DNA from: Acidobacteriota bacterium
Lineage (GTDB): Bacteria; Acidobacteriota; Terriglobia; Terriglobales; Acidobacteriaceae
Assembly (NCBI GenBank): GCA_013290025.1
Contig: JABCYV010000008.1
Location: forward strand, 1-46,022
Length of the DNA stretch: 46,022 nt
Direction: 5' to 3'
Under the pieces are notes generated by a model. It was not told the DNA's origin and made no database searches. It worked only from the letters and a program-made list of their open reading frames with translations. The position numbers and the translations under genes were made by a program. Shown piece after piece: positions 12,252 through 46,022 of the stretch (position 1 is the first letter of the stretch; each line of letters begins with the position of its first letter).

Positions 12252-12307
12252 CCTACGTCGTCGTCCTTGCAAGAGGGCATTTCCTGTACACATCTCTGCA
12301 AGAGGCA

Positions 12308-12426
12308 GCCGTGCCTTCGGGCGGGATCCCACCCTTGACAAAGAACGTCAAGGATGGGGCACCCCAAGATGCACGCTTTCTGAGCGTTTCGAGAGGCGCA
12401 CACTCACGCGCGGGGCCACCCGCCGT
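12308..12426. repeat. REP-like intergenic element, copy A (119 bp)
   Basis: gccgtgccttcgggcgggatcccacccttgacaaagaacgtcaaggatggggcaccc...actcacgcgcggggccacccgccgt; near-identical to 13414-13531. Confidence 0.85.
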
Positions 12427-12505
12427 AACGTCGCAGTTACACTCACTGACCTCGGTTCTGGGTATATGATCAGTGCCGTTTTTGAACCAAGAGGGAGATT
12501 CAGCT

Positions 12506-13246
12506 ATGAAGTCACAACTGTTTGTCGCTGTCCTCGTTGTAGGTCTGGTAATGTCCGCTCTTCCCAGCAGTGCGTGCTCGGATACGACCATTCAGGGCAG
12601 CTGGGGATTCCTTCTCACCGGCGCCAACGGTAACAAGCTCACCGCCGTCGTTGGCCAGATCACCGCTGATGGAAGAGGTGGTCTGACCGGAAGCGAAACC
12701 ATCAGCAGCAATGGCGTGATCAGCTCCAACGTCGCGCTCACAGGAACTTATGCCATCACGACGACCTGCACCGGTACGGCAACGATTACGCCATCTGGAT
12801 TCCCCGCGGCCAAGTACAATCTGACGGTCGTCTCAACCGGAAAACAAATCGAGATCGTGGACACCGACAGTGGAACTACCGCATTCGGGTACGCCTTGGC
12901 TCGGGGTGTTAGCACTTGCACGGACGCAGCGATCAAGGGCACCTTGGGCTTCCAAGGCGGGGGATTTAACTCAGCGCTCGTTCCCAAAGCCTTTGCCGGT
13001 CAGGTCAAGCTTGATGGAGCAGGCAAGCTTACCGGAACGGAGACCGCGAGTGCAGGTGGTACCGTCGCCTCCGGGCCGATATCCGGCACGTATTCGGTCA
13101 ATTCAGACTGCACTGGGTCGGTTAGCGTAACGTTCAAGACCAAAAAATTCACCAGTAATTTCGTAATAGTGAACGGAGACAAATCGGCATTGGAAATTTC
13201 GACCGAGTCCGGAGATATCACGACAACTACTGTTGCCAAGCAGTGA
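12506..13246 (+). CDS. Secreted protein with two tandem homologous domains, function unknown
   Basis: Signal peptide MKSQLFVAVLVVGLVMSALPSSAC; halves CSDTTIQGSWGFLLTG... and CTDAAIKGTLGFQGGG... align (AxxGQ(I/V)..DG.G.LTG(S/T)ET). ATG at 12506 after GAGGGAG. Confidence 0.75.
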   Translation: MKSQLFVAVLVVGLVMSALPSSACSDTTIQGSWGFLLTGANGNKLTAVVGQITADGRGGLTGSETISSNGVISSNVALTGTYAITTTCTGTATITPSGFPAAKYNLTVVSTGKQIEIVDTDSGTTAFGYALARGVSTCTDAAIKGTLGFQGGGFNSALVPKAFAGQVKLDGAGKLTGTETASAGGTVASGPISGTYSVNSDCTGSVSVTFKTKKFTSNFVIVNGDKSALEISTESGDITTTTVAKQ

Positions 13247-13413
13247 TTCACCTCTGCTCACGGCCGCTGGCTTCTCGGTTGTTCTCTGGCTTTTTGTCGA
13301 TATCGCCGGTTAATGGAATGGGTCGTATCCATCTTCAGGCAAGGCGATATGTGAGTCCGGGTGGAGTTTGCGAGACGTGGGGTCTTTCCGTTACCAGAAT
13401 TCTGTAAGAATCG

Positions 13414-13531
13414 GCCGTGCCTTCGGGCGGGATCCCACCCTTGACAAAGAACGTCAAGGATGGGGCACCCTAAGATATACGCTCTGTGCGCGTTTCAAGG
13501 AGCTACACTCACGCGCGGGGCCACCCGCCGT
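13414..13531. repeat. REP-like intergenic element, copy B
   Basis: Direct repeat of 12308-12426 with few differences. Confidence 0.85.
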
Positions 13532-15121: not shown

Positions 15122-15176
15122 AAATTGACGGTCTAACTGGCGGGTGACCCGGGCTACCTCCTCGGATTTTACTCGG

Positions 15177-15418
15177 GAGGGTGCCCCGTCCAAGCTATGC
15201 TTGGGCGGGGGTTTTCCTTCGTTGGCCGTATTTGCACAGTGAGAAATACAACCCGCGCACTCGCGCCGCCGCGCCGTCCATTGCGATTCGATTTCCACCG
15301 TCCCCAGCACCACGCTGCTTTAGTCCCCAAGGCATGGGGACAGGTTAGTTCCGAACCGCTCGCCATTCTGTGACGAACGAACATCCCCGCCCAAGCATAT
15401 CTTGGACGGGGCACCCTC
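15177..15418. repeat. 242-bp element bounded by 33-bp inverted repeats (1 mismatch)
   Basis: gagggtgccccgtccaagctatgcttgggcggg (15177-15209) versus revcomp of 15386-15418 gagggtgccccgtccaagatatgcttgggcggg. Confidence 0.85.
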
Positions 15419-15434
15419 TGGAGTAGAAATGGGA

Positions 15435-20380: not shown

Positions 20381-21703
20381 TCATTCGTAACGCAAAGCTT
20401 CGGCAGGCAGAATACGTGCCGCCGACCACGATGGATAAACCGTCGCAATCAGGGAAATTCCAATCGCAACCAGTGCGACCAGCACTCCATCCATCACGCG
20501 GGGCGCGAAGGGCACATAGTCGATGGAATAAACTTCCGGGGCGAGCGAAAGCAAATGGTAATGTCCGCCGATCCAGGAGAGGGCATAACCGAGGACCAGC
20601 CCGATCGTCGTGCCAATCACACCGATCAGCATCCCCTGCGCGATGAACACTCGGCGCACCTGAGCTTTGCGCGTCCCCATGGACATGAGCACGGCGATAT
20701 CCCGGGTTTTTTCCATAACCATCATCGTCAGCGAGATGAGAATGTTGAGAGCGGCGACGAATACGATCAGCCCTATGGTGATGAAGGTGACCAGACGTTC
20801 CAACCGCAAAGCACGGAAGAGAGCCCGGTTCTGTTCCATCCAGTTTGTGGCCATGAAACCCTTGCCGGCGGCCTGTTCCAGCTTGTGAGCGATTTCGCCG
20901 GCCTGATAGATGTCATCCACTTTGAATTCGATGACGGAAACCAGGTCGCCGAGACCAAAGAGCTGCTGCGCATCGGACAGCCGAGTGAAGGCCCAGGAGC
21001 TGTCGTAGTCGTAGAAGCCGGAGTTGAAAACCCCCGCTACACGAAAGCGGTTGTACTTGGGGACCATGCCAAAAGGAGTCAGCTCGCCTTGCGGACTGGT
21101 GACGAGCACGACCGAGCCCAGGGTAGCGCCCAGCTCGTCGGCCATGTCCTTGCCGAGAATGATGGGGGACATGGCTGCGACGCGGTCCTGGACGCCTTCG
21201 AGAGAAGTCGGCGATTTCTCGGTTGGTGTAGCGCGGGCGCCCTCGCCCGCGGAAGATGAAACTGCATCTGTCGGCCGTTCTTCCAGCGCCTCCGCCGATC
21301 CGATCGTCACCGTGTTCAGCAGGTCGCTGACTTTTCGTTCATAGGCTGGCATCAAGCCCTTGAGCACGGCCCCACGGGCCCGCGGGCCGCGCGAAATCAA
21401 CACCTGCTCATAAATAGCAGGAGCGGTAGCGACTACGTGAGGCTCTTTCGACAGCCGATCCATGAGAGGACGCCAGTCTTTGATGCCGTCACTCTCGATG
21501 CGCAGCAGATTAACGTGGGAAGTCGAGCCCAGGAGACGATCCTGTAGATCCTGGCGGAATCCGTTGTTGATCGCGAGGGCGACGATCAGCGATGCGACTC
21601 CCGCCGCAACCCCGGCGATGGAAATGCCGGTAATGACGCCGATGAAGGCCTGCCTCCTTTTCGCACGGAGATATCGGGAAGCGACAAAAAGTTCAAATCT
21701 CAT
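20381..21703 (-). CDS. lolC: Lipoprotein-releasing ABC transporter permease LolC/E family
   Basis: FELFVASRYLRAKRRQAFIGVITGISIAGVAAGVASLIVALAINNGFRQDLQDRLLGSTSHVNL; FtsX-like C-terminus. Confidence 0.9.
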   Translation of the reverse strand: MRFELFVASRYLRAKRRQAFIGVITGISIAGVAAGVASLIVALAINNGFRQDLQDRLLGSTSHVNLLRIESDGIKDWRPLMDRLSKEPHVVATAPAIYEQVLISRGPRARGAVLKGLMPAYERKVSDLLNTVTIGSAEALEERPTDAVSSSAGEGARATPTEKSPTSLEGVQDRVAAMSPIILGKDMADELGATLGSVVLVTSPQGELTPFGMVPKYNRFRVAGVFNSGFYDYDSSWAFTRLSDAQQLFGLGDLVSVIEFKVDDIYQAGEIAHKLEQAAGKGFMATNWMEQNRALFRALRLERLVTFITIGLIVFVAALNILISLTMMVMEKTRDIAVLMSMGTRKAQVRRVFIAQGMLIGVIGTTIGLVLGYALSWIGGHYHLLSLAPEVYSIDYVPFAPRVMDGVLVALVAIGISLIATVYPSWSAARILPAEALRYE

Positions 21704-21822
21704 CCGGAGGTCCCGCGCTGTGCTCGGGATTTCGGCGCGCGGCTCAAATGCCGCGCAAACGCCTCAACCTGCCGCCGCTTGGCGCGAAGATACCGGGAAG
21801 CGACAAAGAGTTCAAATCTCAT
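21700..21822 (-). CDS. 40-aa micro-ORF: duplicated LolC N-terminus, MRFELFVASRYLRAKRRQVEAFARHLSRAPKSRAQRGTSG
   Basis: TGA overlaps lolC ATG (ATGA). Second unit of the 119-bp tandem repeat. Confidence 0.5.
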   Translation of the reverse strand: MRFELFVASRYLRAKRRQVEAFARHLSRAPKSRAQRGTSG

Positions 21823-21941
21823 CCGGAGGTCCCTCGCTGTGCTCGGGATTTCGGCGCGCGGCTCCAACGCCGCGCGAACGCCTCAACCTGCCGTCTTTTC
21901 GCGCGAAGGTAGCGGGAGGCGACAAAGAGTTCAAAGCGCAT
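21819..21941 (-). CDS. 40-aa micro-ORF: duplicated LolC N-terminus, MRFELFVASRYLRAKRRQVEAFARRWSRAPKSRAQRGTSG
   Basis: TGA overlaps the next micro-ORF ATG (ATGA). First unit of the tandem repeat. Confidence 0.5.
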   Translation of the reverse strand: MRFELFVASRYLRAKRRQVEAFARRWSRAPKSRAQRGTSG

Positions 21942-34496: not shown

Positions 34497-35879
34497 TTAC
34501 TTTGGGGCGCTTCGGGCGAGGGCCCGTTCCAGAGTCTGATCCAGTGCCGCTTTCGCCTTCTCGTACTCCGGTTGCGAGATGCGACCCTGTTTGTGCTCCA
34601 CCTCGAGCTGAAAGAGTTCTTCCTTCAGAGCTTCGAGGAGTAGTTCGGAACGCCCAGTCGACGGGGCTTTTGCTATCGCTCGCGCAATTGGTGCCGCTAG
34701 ATCGGAGGCGATGTCCGCGCTGGAATGTTTGGAACGTCCGGCAATGTAGACTGCTCCGGCCGCCAGCACGATTGCGAACCCACCCAGAATGTACCAGCGA
34801 TACTTTTGCAGTGGATCGGGAGCATCGATGGGAGGGCCCAGTCCGCCTCCTGGACGGGTATCGCGGTTGCGAGCCTGTGGCGGTGCAACAGTGCCGGAAC
34901 CGTCGCCTTCATTTGGGGAGTTCTCTGCCTGAAGCATGCCATTCCCCGACACTGCGAATGCCAGGTCTTCGCCCGGCTTGACTTTGGCCGCAACCTCCGC
35001 AACAGCGCCAGGCGGAGTCGGCGGCTGCTTCTCTTCGTAAACTCCCGCCTGAGCCGAAGAAAACTGAATCGACTGGGGCAGGATCACAACGAAGTGTTCG
35101 AGCGGATAGAGCGGCTTGGGATCGAGGTTGGCTTTACCTTCGTAGGGAAGATGATATGTGACTTGGAATTGGGTCGTGCCCGGACGCAAGGGGAAGACAA
35201 AGGCGTAGCGTCCCTTTTCTGCTTCCGGAACGGGCGCGGTATTAACTGCTTGTCCCCCCGATGTCTGGGCTTGCGCAGAATCGATCTGTGCGCCGCTTGG
35301 TAGATAAAATTCGAAGTTGTGCTCATTCATCTGCGTTTGCGGCGGTTTGGACGTATTGTCGACGGCAAACAGCCGCATTATGGCCAGCTCTCCCTTGCCG
35401 GCCTGCAGGTACATCAAGTCCGCAGTTACGTTAATGCCATCAACTTTCTTGGACACATCATAGACCTGCAAGTCGACCGAAGTGCTTCCCGGAGGCGCCA
35501 TGCGGTGGTAGGTGACGCCCTGATGAATAGCGCGAATCAAGTGGGGGCTGGCGGCGTCATCCAGTTTGAAGCTGAAATTCCCCTGGACATCGGTCTTGGT
35601 ACGGGCGGCTTCCTCCATGCCTTGGGCCAGCTTGATTAGAACAACTTCGTCGCCGCCGGCAGGCTTGTTGGTCGTGCCATTCTTCACGGTGCCGGTGAGG
35701 GTTTGGGCAGAGGCAAAGGAAGCGAGAAGGAGGAGAAGGAACGGGATAAAGGTGCTTGACCTGTGTTCCGGGCCGAGTCTGCCGAGCTTCCGCTCGGCCT
35801 GGACGGGCGAGGCCTGCCCTGAGCGACGTCGAAGGGGCGCCCGTCCCCACATGACCTGTGTCAGCGTTGGCAGGTTCAA
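34497..35879 (-). CDS. Secreted/membrane carboxypeptidase-regulatory-like domain protein with CcmI-like C-terminal coil
   Basis: TLTGTVKNGTTNKPAGGDEVVLIKLAQGMEEAARTKTDVQGNFSF; TM YILGGFAIVLAAGAVYIAG; N-terminus encoded by a repeat (35779-35853). Confidence 0.7.
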   Translation of the reverse strand: MNLPTLTQVMWGRAPLRRRSGQASPVQAERKLGRLGPEHRSSTFIPFLLLLLASFASAQTLTGTVKNGTTNKPAGGDEVVLIKLAQGMEEAARTKTDVQGNFSFKLDDAASPHLIRAIHQGVTYHRMAPPGSTSVDLQVYDVSKKVDGINVTADLMYLQAGKGELAIMRLFAVDNTSKPPQTQMNEHNFEFYLPSGAQIDSAQAQTSGGQAVNTAPVPEAEKGRYAFVFPLRPGTTQFQVTYHLPYEGKANLDPKPLYPLEHFVVILPQSIQFSSAQAGVYEEKQPPTPPGAVAEVAAKVKPGEDLAFAVSGNGMLQAENSPNEGDGSGTVAPPQARNRDTRPGGGLGPPIDAPDPLQKYRWYILGGFAIVLAAGAVYIAGRSKHSSADIASDLAAPIARAIAKAPSTGRSELLLEALKEELFQLEVEHKQGRISQPEYEKAKAALDQTLERALARSAPK

Positions 35880-39365: not shown

Positions 39366-42300
39366 TTAATAGAAATCGTGGGAGGTAGTCTCAGCGCGGG
39401 TGATGGAAAGCGGTAACACCCGTTGGGCTTTCACCGAAATAACGTTATCCTGGTTCTGCAGAATCCCTTCCACCATCAGGAATTGCTCGGAAGATACCAG
39501 CATCCGATTTTTCTGAAATAAATCTGGGGTGATAATGGCGTTGGCTACGCCGGTTTCGTCCTCCAGGCTAAGAAAAACAAACCCTTTGGCGGTTCCAGGA
39601 CGCTGGCGGGCGATGACACACCCCCCTACCCGCACGGACTTCCCGTTCGGAATGTGGCTGAGCTCAATGGCTTTACGGATTCCCATGGCCAGCATTCGAG
39701 GACGGTGGTAGGCCATGGGATGGGGTCCGACAGTCAAGCCAGTGCCTCGGAAATCGCCGACCAGCCGCTCTTCGGCATTCATAGGACGCAGCGGGGATTT
39801 GGAGTCGGGTTCGGGGAGTTCATCCACCAGTGGCCCAGAGTGGCGAACGGCGCGTTCGACTTGCCAGAGAGCGTCGCGACGATGGAAAGCGATATCAGAT
39901 TTCTGATTGCAGATTTCAGATTGATTTGCGTCATCGGTTGCAACCTGCAATCTAAAATCTTCATTCTGAAATTCTTTTCTGTTCTTGCGACTCGGTGGAG
40001 AATTACCGATTGAATTCAAAGCCCCGATTTCTGCCAACGTATTCAGATCGTCCTTCCGCAGTTCAGGAACACGGTGGACGAGATCATGAATGGAAACAAA
40101 CGGCGCCAAACTTCGCTGACGAACCAGCGCCTGGCCAGCCTCCTCGCGCAACCCGCGAGCATACCGCAGGCCAAGGCGTAGCGCTGGGGTCTCGCCGGCT
40201 GTTTCCACGACCGTGCAATTCCACTCAGACTTCATCACATCAATCGACAGCACCTTCAGCCCGTGCCGTTGCGCATCTTTGACGATGGTGGCGGGACGAT
40301 AGAAGCCCATCGGCTGATTATTGAGCAAGGCGGCAGTGAAAGCGGCTAGATAATGACATTTCAAATAGGCACTGGCATAGGCAAGCAGGGCGAAACTGGC
40401 AGCGTGAGACTCGGGAAATCCGTAAAGAGCGAAGGAAGTAATCGAGAGAATAATTTTCTCCTGCGCTTCCCGCGAGATGCCGTTGCGCTCCATGCCGCTG
40501 CGGAGCCTGGCCTCGATTTCCTTCATGCGGGCCTGGGAGCGTTTGAAACCCATGGCGCGACGCAGTTCCTCCGCTTCGCCCCCGCTGAATCCGGCGGCAA
40601 TCATCGCCATGCGCAACAACTGTTCCTGAAAGAGCGGCACGCCCAGTGTGCGCGTCAATACGGGCTCGAGCGAAGGATGCAAGTAGTTGACCGACTCGCG
40701 TCCCATGCGGCGCTGCAAATAAGGATTGACCATCTGACCGACGATGGGGCCAGGGCGAATGATTGCCACTTGCACCACGATGTCATAAAAGCGTTGCGGC
40801 CGCAGGCGCGGCAGGCATGACATCTGCGCCCGGCTCTCGATTTGAAACATGCCGATGGTATCGGCCTTTTGCAACGTGGAATACACCGTGGGATCGTCAG
40901 GCGGAAGGTGGGCGAGGTCCACTTCCTCACCATAATGATTGCGGATGAGTTCGAGAGAATCTTCCAGCACGGCCATCATGCCCAGGCCGAGCAGGTCGAC
41001 CTTGATGATGCCCAGGTCGTTGCAGTCTTCTTTGTCCCACTGCACTACGACGCGCCCGGGCATGGAGGCAGGTTCGAGCGGCACCACGGAATCAAGTTGC
41101 CCCTGGCAGATGACCATGCCACCAGAATGTTGGCCGAGGTGACGTGGCAGATCCTGAACCGCCTCGCAGAGCTCGAAATATTTGCGCAGCCGAGGATGAT
41201 TCAAGTCCAAACCAGCATCGCGGAAGCGATGATCGAGGGTGTCGTTGGCATCCTTGTATTCCCACGTGGAGACGGCGGCTGAGACTTTATCAAGCGTTTC
41301 CGGATCGAAGCCCAGCGCCTTGCCAATTTCGCGCGAAGCCATGCGGCTGCGATAGGTAATGACATTGGCAGTCATAGCGGCGCCGCCTTCCCCGTAGCGC
41401 TTGTACAAATATTGGATTACGCGCTCCCTCTGATCGCCGCTGGGCAGATCGAGATCAATGTCGGGCCACTCGCCGCGCTCCTCCGAGAGGAAGCGCTCAA
41501 AGAGTAGTTCCATACCCACTGGATCGACGGCGGTGATGCCGAGCGAATAACAAACGGCGCTGTTGGCCGCGGAGCCGCGCCCCTGCACCAGAATGTTTTG
41601 CTCACAGCAGTAGCGGACCAGGTCCCAGACGATGAGAAAGTAGCCGGCAAGATTCAGCTTTTGGATCAGCGTCAGCTCACGCTCGATCTGATGGCGAGCG
41701 CGATTCTTGAGTTCGGATGCGGCCCGGCCATAGTGCTGCAGGAAACCTTCCCAACTGCGTTCCCGGAGGAACGACATCATTGTCTCGCCTTCGGGGACGG
41801 GATATTTGGGAAATTCATATCCCAAATCGCTGAGTGTGAATTCGAAGCGAGACGACAATTCCACCGTGTTAGCGATGGTTTCGGGCAGATCGGCGAACAG
41901 TTGCTGCATCTTCTGCCGCGATTTCAGGTGACGCTCGGAATTGCGGGCCAGCAGGCGTCCAGCGGTGGCCAGCGTGCGATGGTTGCGGATGGCAGTGAAA
42001 ACGTCACAAAGCTCGCGCTCATGGGCGGTGGCATAGCAAACGCCGTTGGTGGCCAATAGCGGAAGCCGGAGGGAACGCGCAATTTCGATGGCAGCGCGGT
42101 TGCGAGCTTCCTGTTCGCGATGAAAATGGCGCTGCAGTTCTACATATACATTGTCCCGGCCAAAAATTTCCGTCAGGTGCTCAATCGAGCGCTGAGCTTC
42201 TTCCTTTCCCCCTTGGGCAAGTGCGGTTGCGAGCGGACCATCGTCACCTCCGGTCAGGCAGATAAGTCCGACCGAGTGTTCTTGCAATTCCTTTTCGTGG

Positions 42301-42713
42301 ACAGTGCCTTCGCCTTTCTTTGCCCGGAGTTTCATCTTGGTGATCAGGCGGCAAAGATTCTGGTAGCCGGTGCGGGAAGAGACAAGGAGGGGAAGACGGA
42401 AAGAGATTTTTGAATGTTCGGATTTATGAATTGTCGAATTGAAAACATCTCGATCCTTTGACGGATTCTTCAATTCGTCAATCCGGAAATTCGTCAGTCC
42501 GAAAATTTCACACATTACTTCCGCTCCGATGTGCGCCTTGATCCCGGCCTTCTCCGCTGCCATGTGAAAACGCGGAGCGCCATACACGCCGTCCCGGTCG
42601 AGCAGGGCCATGGCCGGCATGTGCAGGTTGGCGCAGTTTGCGATCAGATCTTCAGGCAGGGAAGCGCCTTCGAGAAAACTGAAGGCAGAGCGGGAATGAA
42701 ATTCGATGTACAT
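39366..42713 (-). CDS. dnaE2: Error-prone DNA polymerase DnaE2 (ImuC)
   Basis: PHP MYIEFHSRSAFSFLEGASLPEDLI; DIDLDLPSGDQRERVIQYLYKRYG; HLGQHSGGMVICQGQLDSVVPLEPA; FPESHAASFALLAYASAYLKCHY. Confidence 0.95.
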   Translation of the reverse strand: MYIEFHSRSAFSFLEGASLPEDLIANCANLHMPAMALLDRDGVYGAPRFHMAAEKAGIKAHIGAEVMCEIFGLTNFRIDELKNPSKDRDVFNSTIHKSEHSKISFRLPLLVSSRTGYQNLCRLITKMKLRAKKGEGTVHEKELQEHSVGLICLTGGDDGPLATALAQGGKEEAQRSIEHLTEIFGRDNVYVELQRHFHREQEARNRAAIEIARSLRLPLLATNGVCYATAHERELCDVFTAIRNHRTLATAGRLLARNSERHLKSRQKMQQLFADLPETIANTVELSSRFEFTLSDLGYEFPKYPVPEGETMMSFLRERSWEGFLQHYGRAASELKNRARHQIERELTLIQKLNLAGYFLIVWDLVRYCCEQNILVQGRGSAANSAVCYSLGITAVDPVGMELLFERFLSEERGEWPDIDLDLPSGDQRERVIQYLYKRYGEGGAAMTANVITYRSRMASREIGKALGFDPETLDKVSAAVSTWEYKDANDTLDHRFRDAGLDLNHPRLRKYFELCEAVQDLPRHLGQHSGGMVICQGQLDSVVPLEPASMPGRVVVQWDKEDCNDLGIIKVDLLGLGMMAVLEDSLELIRNHYGEEVDLAHLPPDDPTVYSTLQKADTIGMFQIESRAQMSCLPRLRPQRFYDIVVQVAIIRPGPIVGQMVNPYLQRRMGRESVNYLHPSLEPVLTRTLGVPLFQEQLLRMAMIAAGFSGGEAEELRRAMGFKRSQARMKEIEARLRSGMERNGISREAQEKIILSITSFALYGFPESHAASFALLAYASAYLKCHYLAAFTAALLNNQPMGFYRPATIVKDAQRHGLKVLSIDVMKSEWNCTVVETAGETPALRLGLRYARGLREEAGQALVRQRSLAPFVSIHDLVHRVPELRKDDLNTLAEIGALNSIGNSPPSRKNRKEFQNEDFRLQVATDDANQSEICNQKSDIAFHRRDALWQVERAVRHSGPLVDELPEPDSKSPLRPMNAEERLVGDFRGTGLTVGPHPMAYHRPRMLAMGIRKAIELSHIPNGKSVRVGGCVIARQRPGTAKGFVFLSLEDETGVANAIITPDLFQKNRMLVSSEQFLMVEGILQNQDNVISVKAQRVLPLSITRAETTSHDFY

Positions 42714-42768
42714 TGCAAATCTTTTTCATCACAGAGTCACGGAGTCACAGAGAAAATCTTTGGAGTTG

Positions 42769-44418
42769 CTAGTCATAAGTTCCCTCTACATACCATCCCC
42801 CGCTGAGCAGATCGCGGACCAACCGATAAAGCGCGATCCCGGTTTCCTCTTGCATCGCGATGTCCCATTCATCGCGGGCCCAGCCTTCCTGGTCCCACCA
42901 ATCGCCTGACGAGCGCCAGGGGCCGGCTGCCCAGACGATTTCTCCCTGGATCGGTCTGTGCCCGGAGCAGACCAGACGCGATGGTCCACCATCGCGTAGC
43001 GTCACCGCAGCGCGCAAAGGCGGACGGAAGATGCGCAGGGCAGTGACGACATTCGCTTTCTCCTGATTGCCAGCAGGTTTGTCTTCTTTTCGTGACACAC
43101 CTTCTCGCGGCATTTCGGGCGCGAAGCCTTTCATTCGAAAACCTTCTGGACGGTGTGTATCCAGCAACTCGAGCGATCCGACCTGGTTTTCACCCACAAT
43201 GCCCGCAATTCTGGCAAGTGTGAGTTCGAGCTTTTCTGGCTCTGGTGAGGGCGGAAGAAAAAGACCGCCCTGAGCCGCACGCGGACGCGCCGGCTCCGCT
43301 GACAAATAAATTTTTAGAATGGGCGCCCCGGGGGGATGCGCCTTCAAATCAAGCTGCAATAGCTTGAGGAAAGTTTTAGCATCCAGCATCGGGACGGGAA
43401 GCCGAAGCGTACGTTGAAAAATCTTGCGACTCTCGCTTTCACAATAAGGCTGCCGAGCTTGCACTCGGCCTCGACGGGCGGGGGCGCCCGTCTCCACATG
43501 GCTAGTGGCTGGTTCAGTAATTTCTTCTGCATGGCATCCTTGCTCCAACGCCAATCGCAGCCGCAGTTCCTGCGTTGCCAGAGCGTGTGTACTCAGCCGA
43601 GCGCACAATTGTTCCAGCAGCCGGCCCAACAGAAATGCCAGGGGCTCAAGCAACACGAGCGGATACTCCAATTCGATGACTTCTTCGAAAACCAGCGGCG
43701 GTTCGACCGGAACCAATGTGCGGAAAGTCTCGCCCCGGGCCAGTTGCTGCAGGCGAACGCCTTTCTGCCCTAAGCGCTCGCTGATGGCAACATCCGGCAA
43801 GGCAGCTAATGCCAGCACATTACGCACTCCCCAACGGCTGTAGGTTTCCGAAAATTGCTCGATTTCTTGGGCGTCGCAAAAGCTCTCCAAAAGGACTTGT
43901 ACCGGCAGAGACCCCAACTGCTCTGCTTCTTTTCCCGCGGGAATCACGGTCACGCCGTGAAAACCTCGAGCCGCAAGTGCAGCCGTATCAGGATTGGAAG
44001 CCACTGCGACGTTGGCTTTGAGTCCGAGAGCGAAAGCACGACGAGTCACATCACGTGCAATCTTGGACAGAGAACCAAAAAGTGATTCCAGTCCTCCCAG
44101 GTCAAGAAGAATAGTGTCGCAGCCCGCATCTTCTACACGTGGCGAAAACGACTGCGCACAGTCCAGTAGTGCGGCGTGTGCGGCAGCTTCCTGCAACGAA
44201 GAACGGTTGTGCAGCACTAGACCGGCACAGGCTTCCACCTGCAACTTCATCATTCCTGGTTCAATTCCGGCACGACGAGCCGATTCGTTCACGGCAAAAA
44301 CTTTTTGCAGAGGTGCTTTACCTTCAAGCACAACCACAGACTGGGAACGCAGCTCAGGTTCGACGCGGAGGAGTGCTTCCACGGGAAAATCAGGAACGAA
44401 GATGCAAGCAAAAGGCAT
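42769..44418 (-). CDS. imuB: ImuB-like Y-family DNA polymerase homologue
   Basis: MPFACIFVPDFPVEALLRVEPELRSQSVVVLEG...DTILLDLGGLESLFGS; C-terminal MQEETGIALYRLVRDLLSGGWYVEGTYD. Confidence 0.9.
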   Translation of the reverse strand: MPFACIFVPDFPVEALLRVEPELRSQSVVVLEGKAPLQKVFAVNESARRAGIEPGMMKLQVEACAGLVLHNRSSLQEAAAHAALLDCAQSFSPRVEDAGCDTILLDLGGLESLFGSLSKIARDVTRRAFALGLKANVAVASNPDTAALAARGFHGVTVIPAGKEAEQLGSLPVQVLLESFCDAQEIEQFSETYSRWGVRNVLALAALPDVAISERLGQKGVRLQQLARGETFRTLVPVEPPLVFEEVIELEYPLVLLEPLAFLLGRLLEQLCARLSTHALATQELRLRLALEQGCHAEEITEPATSHVETGAPARRGRVQARQPYCESESRKIFQRTLRLPVPMLDAKTFLKLLQLDLKAHPPGAPILKIYLSAEPARPRAAQGGLFLPPSPEPEKLELTLARIAGIVGENQVGSLELLDTHRPEGFRMKGFAPEMPREGVSRKEDKPAGNQEKANVVTALRIFRPPLRAAVTLRDGGPSRLVCSGHRPIQGEIVWAAGPWRSSGDWWDQEGWARDEWDIAMQEETGIALYRLVRDLLSGGWYVEGTYD

Positions 44419-44457
44419 TGGTCGTCATGCTCTCGAGACAGCCACTGAGACGGCACA

Positions 44458-45366
44458 CTACGAAATTCGTTGTGTTTTGGTCAGGAACGCTGCAGTGATC
44501 GATCCTGATGGCTTGCGCTCCATGCGCGAACGCAATAGTTCTCCTTCTACGCGGATTCCCTCCAGCAATTGCGTATGAGTTGGGAATAAATTCTTTTTTT
44601 CAGAATGTTGAGGGCCGAAAGCTGAAAGCTCTTTTGACGCTTGCAATCTCACCAGCAGAGAAGCGCAAGTTTGCACGCACGGCGCTTGGGCCACGACAAA
44701 CAGCACCGTAGGCGTATACTCCACGGCACGCTGAAAACGAAACCAGGTAGTCAGCGGAATGCGCCGCGCTGTCTGAATCGGAACATCACCAAGATCAATG
44801 GCCACCAGACCGAAGCTGCCGCTTTGCAGAAGCAGGTCTGTGACCCTCAGCGCTCGCTCCAGCAATTTGTAATTCTTCCCCTCAGAGGTTAAAGCCCGTT
44901 CTTTTGAGTGAATTTTTTTGGCACGACTGAAAGCGTGCCCTTCTCGATCGTGCTTTTTATTGGGAAGACCGCATTGCACCCAGAGCAGTCTTTCAAAATC
45001 CACTCCTGCGGCAGCCGCCGAGACGGGATCAAATGCATCGGTGGCATCCATCAGAGCGCAGACTTCTCCTCGCCGGGTGGCAGAAGCCAGAGAAGCCAGC
45101 AGCACACTGGTGCGTCCCGAAGAAGCTGGCCCGCAGATTTCGCTCAGGCATCCTCGTGGCAACCCGCCGGTAAGCTTGTTAATCTCGTAAATCCCGCTGG
45201 AAACCATTTCCGGCGTGGGCCGCACCTCGAGCTGCGATGCAGGAGCCACTCCGTGAAGTTTGGGCAACGTGGAGAGCCGTTTTAGAAGGAGCGCAGCCCC
45301 CTCTTTCCCAGCAAAAGCAGCGGGGCGGCCCAGAGCATCAGGGGCACAAATCACCGGGGAAGACAT
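44458..45366 (-). CDS. imuA: ImuA/RecA-like mutasome protein
   Basis: GIYEINKLTGGLPRGCLSEICGPASSGRTSVLLASLASATRRGEVCALMDATDAFDPVSAAAAGVDFERLLWVQCG; upstream of imuB and dnaE2. Confidence 0.82.
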   Translation of the reverse strand: MSSPVICAPDALGRPAAFAGKEGAALLLKRLSTLPKLHGVAPASQLEVRPTPEMVSSGIYEINKLTGGLPRGCLSEICGPASSGRTSVLLASLASATRRGEVCALMDATDAFDPVSAAAAGVDFERLLWVQCGLPNKKHDREGHAFSRAKKIHSKERALTSEGKNYKLLERALRVTDLLLQSGSFGLVAIDLGDVPIQTARRIPLTTWFRFQRAVEYTPTVLFVVAQAPCVQTCASLLVRLQASKELSAFGPQHSEKKNLFPTHTQLLEGIRVEGELLRSRMERKPSGSITAAFLTKTQRIS

Positions 45367-45672: not shown

Positions 45673-45747
45673 GGCGCTATCGTCTAGGGGTTAGGACGGA
45701 AGATTCTCAATCTTCAAACCCGGGTTCGATTCCCGGTAGCGCTACCA
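45673..45747 (+). tRNA. tRNA-Glu (anticodon CTC), CCA encoded
   Basis: GGCGCTATCGTCTAGGGGTTAGGACGGAAGATTCTCAATCTTCAAACCCGGGTTCGATTCCCGGTAGCGCTACCA folds as cloverleaf; loop TTCTCAA. Confidence 0.93.
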
Positions 45748-45789
45748 ACTCTGTTTCAATCCTTTACAACGTTTTTTGGCACGGTTGCT

Positions 45790-46021
45790 TCATGCGGCTG
45801 TGGCCACTTTTGTGGCCAGCTTTTGCACAGCTTCCACAAGCCTCGATGACACCTGGTTCCGCCGCTCGATTGCTTCCCGGATCTGCCGCACGTTGGAGTG
45901 GTTGTAGATGCGTGCGGTATCTACTGACTGATGCCCCATCGCATCCATCACCGCCATCACGTTGCCTGTGCCTTCCATCGCATCGGTTGCGAAGCGATGG
46001 CGAGCACAGTACAGAACGACA
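45790..46021 (-). CDS. Tyrosine recombinase/phage integrase, C-terminal part (truncated by window end)
   Basis: VVLYCARHRFATDAMEGTGNVMAVMDAMGHQSVDTARIYNHSN: HxxR, GH and catalytic Y motifs. Confidence 0.85.
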   Translation of the reverse strand, partial: VVLYCARHRFATDAMEGTGNVMAVMDAMGHQSVDTARIYNHSNVRQIREAIERRNQVSSRLVEAVQKLATKVATAA

Positions 46022-46022
46022 G

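Follow-up and report, generated by a model that had tools for sequence, protein, structure and literature searches.

In-frame palindromic repeats, mostly hairpins of tandem heptamers, at recurring linkers of the imuA-imuB-dnaE2 mutasome operon in Acidobacteriota

Palindromic repeats found inside of genes are rare, and mostly have been regarded as accidents. Cyanobacterial short tandemly repeated repetitive (STRR) sequences are heptanucleotide simple repeats. Rickettsia palindromic elements (RPE-1 to RPE-8) are palindromes that lie in frame within protein genes, where they are translated as extra loops. The repetitive extragenic palindromes (REPs) surveyed by Di Nocera et al. (2013; PMC3733652) are stem-loops of 20-40 nt, tagged with GTAG or CGTC, and lie in frame within genes for replication and repair, that for DnaE2 among them, as well as in tRNA synthetase and tRNA-modifying genes, with mutator effects proposed. 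Further heptanucleotide repeats include TAACTGA in Beggiatoaceae and GGGAATC in Xanthomonas (PMC4679880, PMC4692102), and heptamers, at least as reported in one of those sources, outnumber other kinds of long simple repeat in many bacterial genomes, with slippage proposed (Mrazek 2007, via PMC4679880). Here we consider the imuA-imuB-dnaE2 mutasome operon as found at positions 39366-45366 of ‘the window’, that is, a stretch of 46,022 nt making up contig JABCYV010000008.1 of assembly GCA_013290025.1.

All three genes of this operon carry in-frame segments that resemble repeats. These segments, along with those found in relatives, are probably (at a rough 0.62) short palindromic repeats, mostly hairpins with arms of tandem heptamers such as are scattered between genes, which would recurrently come to lie in frame at about six disordered mutasome linkers by slippage plus template switching, and there be tolerated. 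The interval is exactly the operon, on the minus strand with all three open reading frames (ORFs) intact, and the combination of a C-family DnaE2, a Y-family-like ImuB, and a RecA-like ImuA within one operon is that of an ImuA-ImuB-DnaE2 mutasome, with relatives keeping the gene order. The host is an Acidobacteriota bacterium of Terriglobales type (4.9 Mb assembly, 327 contigs), and named relatives belong to Acidobacteria gp1/Terriglobales. Features are as follows, with AF2 standing for AlphaFold2 and pLDDT for its per-residue confidence (predicted local distance difference test).

39366..42713, minus strand: dnaE2, error-prone DNA polymerase III alpha subunit, 1115 aa (NF004225 match, 1222 bits; present in most relatives)
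42769..44418, minus strand: imuB, Y-family-like mutasome subunit, 549 aa (PF00817 IMS; AF2 model pLDDT 82)
44458..45366, minus strand: imuA, RecA-like mutasome subunit, 302 aa (PF00154; NF033429 ImuA weak)
42402..42512, minus strand: insertion 1, dnaE2 aa 68-104, a PHP-domain loop; octamer-type array (AATTCGTC/AATCCGAA) with imperfect inverted arms (alignment; tandem repeat at 42472-42507)
39885..40007, minus strand: insertion 2, dnaE2 aa 903-943, between the helix-hairpin-helix (HhH) and OB-fold domains; heptamer hairpin of CAGATTT/CAGATTG (period-7 array at 39895-39922)
43426..43530, minus strand: insertion 3, imuB aa 297-331; two GC-rich hairpins (GCCGAG..CTCGGC and GACGGGCG..CGCCCGTC), with copies in genome and window
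44869..44958, minus strand: insertion 4, imuA aa 137-166; holds a hairpin of the GAAGGGCACG..CGTGCC type, known between genes elsewhere (alignment; copies in genome sample)
43042..43125, minus strand: variable linker, imuB aa 432-459; some relatives bear repeats here (alignment)
44581..44622, minus strand: variable linker, imuA aa 249-262; some relatives bear repeats here (alignment)
42729..42752, no strand assigned: three copies of TCACAGAG, an octamer array within the imuB-dnaE2 gap, of the same class as CACAGAG inserts in genes of relatives (tandem-repeat listing)
35776..35860, plus strand: second window copy of the imuB insert repeat (86% over 37 nt, 85% over 27 nt)

Upon alignment with 28 relatives, the window proteins differ by tens of residues at dnaE2 68-104, ~840, and 903-943, at imuB ~300 and ~435, and at imuA ~140 and ~250, with flanks that are nearly invariant and with frames that are open in all of the relatives aligned. 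Class-level relatives span the variable sites with 14-30 aa, and the dnaE2 905 site in particular consists of ~14 residues in relatives lacking inserts vs. 25 to 89 in relatives bearing them. It is different insertions that occupy the same linkers, that is, a different repeat in different genera. The possibility that these are conserved protein segments common to homologues was rejected, as no such conservation is seen among relatives. The segments are thus confirmed as insertions, with a repeat content well above chance. An earlier note, made from the letters of the window, had described such in-frame segments in all three genes and had put their number at four or five; four stand, while the two further variable linkers do not, no second copy of either (imuB 43042-43125, imuA 44581-44622) having been found in the 25% genome sample, i.e., in 1.25 Mb of the window's genome (three relatives were sampled at 0.33-0.40 Mb each).

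Copies of the other inserts were found. The dnaE2 insert at 39885-40007, with an RNA fold z of about -2, matches 18 further genomic places (best 78% over 83 nt, E 8e-12), and the imuB insert at 43426-43530 matches 8 (best E 1.3e-8), among them window positions 35776-35860, which bears out a suggestion that one of these sequences recurs within the window. The imuA insert at 44869-44958 has three matches within the 25% sample, at E 2e-5 to 8e-4. Most of the inserts, that is, are not single-copy, three having 3 to 18 other places; for dnaE2 68-104 (42402-42512) the matches are weak only, with E 6e-5 in the 25% sample and 3e-3 genome-wide. Of the 19 mutasome inserts considered in five genomes, 12 could be found a second time (E<=1e-3) within the sample of their own genome, vs. 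~4 of 42 inserts of other genes. Insertions themselves are also denser, with indels of >=10 aa at 2.1-3.8 per 1000 aligned aa in mutasome proteins vs. 0.5-1.2 in other orthologues of the same identity band (orthologue pairs, five genomes), a comparison that the earlier note had proposed.

The inserts of relatives form long and nearly perfect hairpins (z of -6 to -10 for many of those at dnaE2 905), with arms made up of heptamers in imperfect tandem, such as AGTTTCN, AGTTGCC, AGTGGTC, AGTACCG, TTTCTCG, and CAGATTN. Seven is in clear excess as a period, with 73 period-7 arrays in four genomes and at most 10 for every other period from 4 to 13. These are not perfect repeats of one fixed unit, as in long simple sequence repeats (LSSRs) or STRRs; instead each genome holds many different imperfect units. 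It is very improbable, then, that what we have here are ordinary fast-evolving, low-complexity linkers which only by chance resemble repeats. The two variable window linkers lacking a second copy fit that idea, but near-perfect hairpins, copies across the genome, and the specificity of period 7 do not, nor does a shuffled-sequence control, which yielded no hairpins. Chance low complexity was rejected on the strength of those z values and that control, and is already refuted for most sites.

How these repeats are distributed was gauged over 41 loci (a scan of genome contigs giving 12 loci), for a total of 212 kb of mutasome and 129 kb of flanking coding sequence (CDS), further relatives (83-86% identical; G071, G074, G075, G094, and others) having been left out. 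Genes were called by a simple hexamer method, and the genomes sampled, many of them metagenome-assembled, were picked for contiguity rather than randomly. The mutasome holds 75 period-7 arrays, one or two being counted per hairpin, along with 33 strong hairpins, vs. none of either in the flanking CDS, a concentration in the mutasome cassette that had been claimed from the window alone. Strong hairpins in CDS generally number ~3 in 2 Mb (four-genome sample). As a hairpin count by exact arms overlooks old inserts, e.g., the window's own dnaE2, period-7 autocorrelation was added. By that measure the same four genomes have 15 arrays in 23.9 kb of mutasome (627/Mb), 53 in 326 kb of intergenic DNA (163/Mb), and 5 in 1.99 Mb of other CDS (2.5/Mb), with the mutasome excess at p 5e-5 over intergenic DNA and p 2e-25 over other CDS. 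The dnaE1 paralogue (8 relatives, 24 kb) has neither arrays nor hairpins. Repeats in the mutasome are thus at least as dense as in intergenic DNA, and far denser than in other genes.

Matches by blastn (E<=1e-4) between CDS interiors and intergenic DNA number, in three relatives, 7 in the mutasome vs. 6 in other genes, the mutasome making up ~2% of CDS. In the window's genome the equivalent numbers are 1 and 24, and of those 24 most resemble paralogues or remnants of genes. A measure based on how much of the CDS is covered by exact 11-mers from intergenic repeats proved too noisy and was dropped.

Placement is narrow as well. Of the 33 strong hairpins (12+ genomes), every one that could be mapped lies at the six linkers, save for two cross-pairings of neighboring dnaE2 840/905 inserts. 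In the dnaE2 of relatives G007 and G011 (loci L061 and L064), the arms of the aa 840 insert are complementary to those of the aa 905 insert, such that the two inserts could pair. Over the DnaE2 tree, arrays are found mostly, and patchily, in one part of the family, several members of which lack them.

Might these inserts be small, non-autonomous mobile elements, similar to REPINs (REP doublets forming hairpins) or MITEs (miniature inverted-repeat transposable elements), moved by a Y1 transposase of REP-associated tyrosine transposase (RAYT) type or by some other transposase, with the mutasome targeted because it is tolerant or because it is transcribed or single-stranded while the transposase acts? 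We view this as a possible but doubtful account. Copies are dispersed within the same genomes, arm polarity is conserved (T-rich 5' arm in 22 of 26), loops are shared on occasion, elements are nested one within another's loop (L059, L068), and Y1_Tnp genes are present in 51 of 61 genomes. Y1 genes are equally common, however, in genomes without mutasome inserts (G032, G033, G034, G009), GTAG or CGTC tags are absent from all but one of the 33 mutasome hairpins, the heptamer sequence of the arms varies freely within one genome, and no target-site duplication is recognizable upon inspection by eye. Y1/RAYT copy number was considered as a discriminator across the 61 genomes and set aside, as it does not separate those bearing inserts from those free of them (flanks of Y1 genes were not examined).

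To resume with repeats that would have entered the three mutasome genes in frame, or been rebuilt there, at about six linkers and separately in many lineages, the arrays may arise by 7-nt slippage in combination with fold-back or template-switch copying. Template switching in yeast is known to homogenize inverted-repeat arms, including in coding DNA (PMC8604942). As there, a replication mechanism that matches arms and alters protein sequence would be at work; the yeast events are small substitutions, whereas those considered here are hairpin insertions of 60-250 nt. Copying also may take place in part from linker to linker within the cassette. In G011, ~80 places match one dnaE2 hairpin, but close full-length matches that include the loop number two, both in dnaE2 (92%). 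In G004, dnaE2 holds two of the three best full-length copies and imuA the third, with ~ten poorer copies elsewhere. In G005 a 155-nt insert is common to dnaE2 and imuB, with 72 nt of it also in imuA; a search of the whole genome at lower sensitivity turned up nothing but fragments in other places, though it missed the imuB copy too. With nearest copies lying in the same cassette in three relatives, copying therefore would seem to be partly local.

Individual heptamers can be followed similarly, i.e., as arrays within the mutasome out of those in the genome. For AGTTTC these are 1/1 in G028, 4/5 in G012, 5/17 in G002, 4/23 in G026, and 4/38 in G019; for TTTCTCG, 5/20 in G004; and for GAGTACC, 2/2 in G007, both in dnaE2. 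These motifs were picked for their presence in the mutasome, and the unbiased figure therefore is that of the period-7 densities, 627 vs. 163 vs. 2.5/Mb.

Such numbers bear on whether the repeats are products of the mutasome, or of error-prone synthesis at the mutasome locus, with DnaE2-dependent slippage and fold-back being commonest at an operon that, under SOS, is open and strongly transcribed. Arrays that are denser than in intergenic DNA are consistent with this, as are heptamer families that are confined, or nearly so, to dnaE2 (those of G028, G012, and G007). Those confined families, however, come from motifs picked for being in the mutasome, and arrays are absent from many relatives whose mutasome is intact. 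We therefore consider it unlikely. Also unlikely, in its stronger form, is that the operon is a self-editing hot spot, one in which fold-back synthesis at or by the mutasome would make heptamer hairpins, copy them between the operon's own linkers, and thereby record the mutasome's own activity in coding sequence. Nearest copies lying inside the cassette nonetheless keep alive the idea of some mutasome role in repeat making, a role which the earlier note had raised.

Returning to uptake and tolerance at linkers, persistence would follow if the linkers tolerate any open, hydrophilic peptide, the survivors being in-frame, stop-free copies. Heptamers that are stop-free on both strands make up 47 of 75 mutasome arrays vs. 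10 of 53 intergenic arrays (p 8e-7), an excess that is expected should only readable inserts survive. In AF2 models, confidence is below pLDDT 50 at ImuB 295-329 and 431-459 and, in a DnaE2 model of moderate quality (mean 71), at 73-99 and 904-941, i.e., the inserts of these two proteins lie in low-confidence stretches, as a proposed check against structure models had envisaged. The insertion sites are predicted, that is, to be disordered, flexible linkers. Outside of the inserts, dN/dS for the three genes is 0.03-0.2 (synonymous sites being near saturation), and the enzymes therefore are kept; the protein cores are under strong purifying selection. Weak constraint, as had been suggested, consequently describes the linkers and not the proteins as wholes.

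That same purifying selection matters to another account, wherein the inserts are selected, with messenger RNA or DNA hairpins, or longer linkers, tuning or disabling the mutasome and hence mutation rate, as in the mutator effects proposed by Di Nocera et al. (2013). No inactivation is under way given such selection on the cores. The peptides encoded by inserts show no conservation and fall in disordered linkers, and many close relatives do without inserts. The account does draw upon the same sites being hit in many lineages, and upon REPs within repair genes, DnaE2 included, often being the sole REP-bearing genes of a species (PMC3733652). We judge it quite unlikely.

Several observations sit less well with repeat uptake by slippage and template switching. 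The mechanics of gain and loss are inferred, no insertion event having been caught between near-identical strains. A true mobile element could instead account for arm polarity that is conserved and for loops that are shared on occasion. Some inserts are not heptamer arrays at all: the imuB GC hairpins, the CACAGAG-type arrays, and a longer ATCCTGAGCG-type element, the latter two seen in relatives. Tolerance alone, moreover, should fill the linkers of other genes too, and such filling is rare; linker tolerance accounts for survival but not for near-absence from other proteins' linkers.

With regard to kinship, these repeats are neither RPEs nor GTAG/CGTC REPs, yet behave like both. As with RPEs, a likeness the earlier note had drawn, they are palindromic and lie in frame within protein genes; membership does not hold. 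RPEs are Rickettsia families each with their own consensus, whereas the inserts here, in an Acidobacteriota host, consist mostly of variable 7-nt units with no apparent sequence relation to RPEs, a separation based on the character of the units rather than on comparison of consensuses. As with the REPs of Di Nocera et al. (PMC3733652), short palindromes are found in frame with a bias toward DNA synthesis and repair genes, dnaE2 among them, theirs sometimes being two per gene or in genes that are the sole ones tagged. Unlike those REPs, the hairpins here are untagged heptamer arrays, and all three mutasome genes are hit at the same linkers, with replacement lineage by lineage. A bias of intragenic REPs toward repair genes, including dnaE2, thus is known already, and what is seen here is another repeat type with the same bias. 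STRR, TAACTGA, and GGGAATC repeats also have a 7-nt period, are mainly intergenic, are sporadic by lineage, and are sometimes inverted, but they usually are perfect copies of one fixed unit, whereas the units of the inserts here differ from one another, pair up as hairpins, and occur at high density within a single operon. The literature searched, which covered few subscription journals, yielded no description of heptamer hairpins within genes of the mutasome or of Acidobacteria.

An inducible mutagenesis operon of soil Acidobacteria, in short, takes up repeats at the same six linkers, lineage after lineage, at intergenic-like density. That two unrelated repeat types, the tagged REPs having been reported from other phyla, are found on one gene class makes it testable whether error-prone repair attracts, makes, or benefits from repeats. 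The mutasome linkers are also a natural archive of how conserved enzymes gain loops in frame.

Elsewhere in the window's own genome, alaS (L124:11538-14714, contig C56) has an in-frame hairpin insert of the imuB-insert family, with 44-nt arms, at aa about 322-376, as well as further indels vs. a relative. In mnmG/gidA (L113:17471-19726, contig C45) are two in-frame inserts which look mutually homologous (DCHTDRDAFASEGPGRDAAPF..ARGELPY and DCHPEVPIFGAEGSGRDTAPF..ARGEHPY), one of them adjoining a heptamer array, and mtaB, for a tRNA methylthiotransferase (L100:11647-13113, contig C32), has an in-frame heptamer array. Three tRNA-related genes are therefore tagged, and these are of the same gene classes as in the REP survey (PMC3733652).

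Within the window are repeats of other sorts. At 15170-15425 is an intergenic inverted repeat with 53-nt arms and a 150-nt loop, the strongest hairpin of the window. A 119-bp tandem repeat of 2.4 copies (21649-21935) overlaps the start of a minus-strand gene, and repeated 99-bp plus 27-bp blocks, 89-100% identical, flank the gene at 12473-13246 (12295-12426 and 13401-13531). At 45673-46022, lastly, a tRNA-Glu (CTC anticodon) is followed, at the contig end, by a minus-strand ORF with the look of an integrase fragment, judging by appearance, making this a possible mobile-element integration site.

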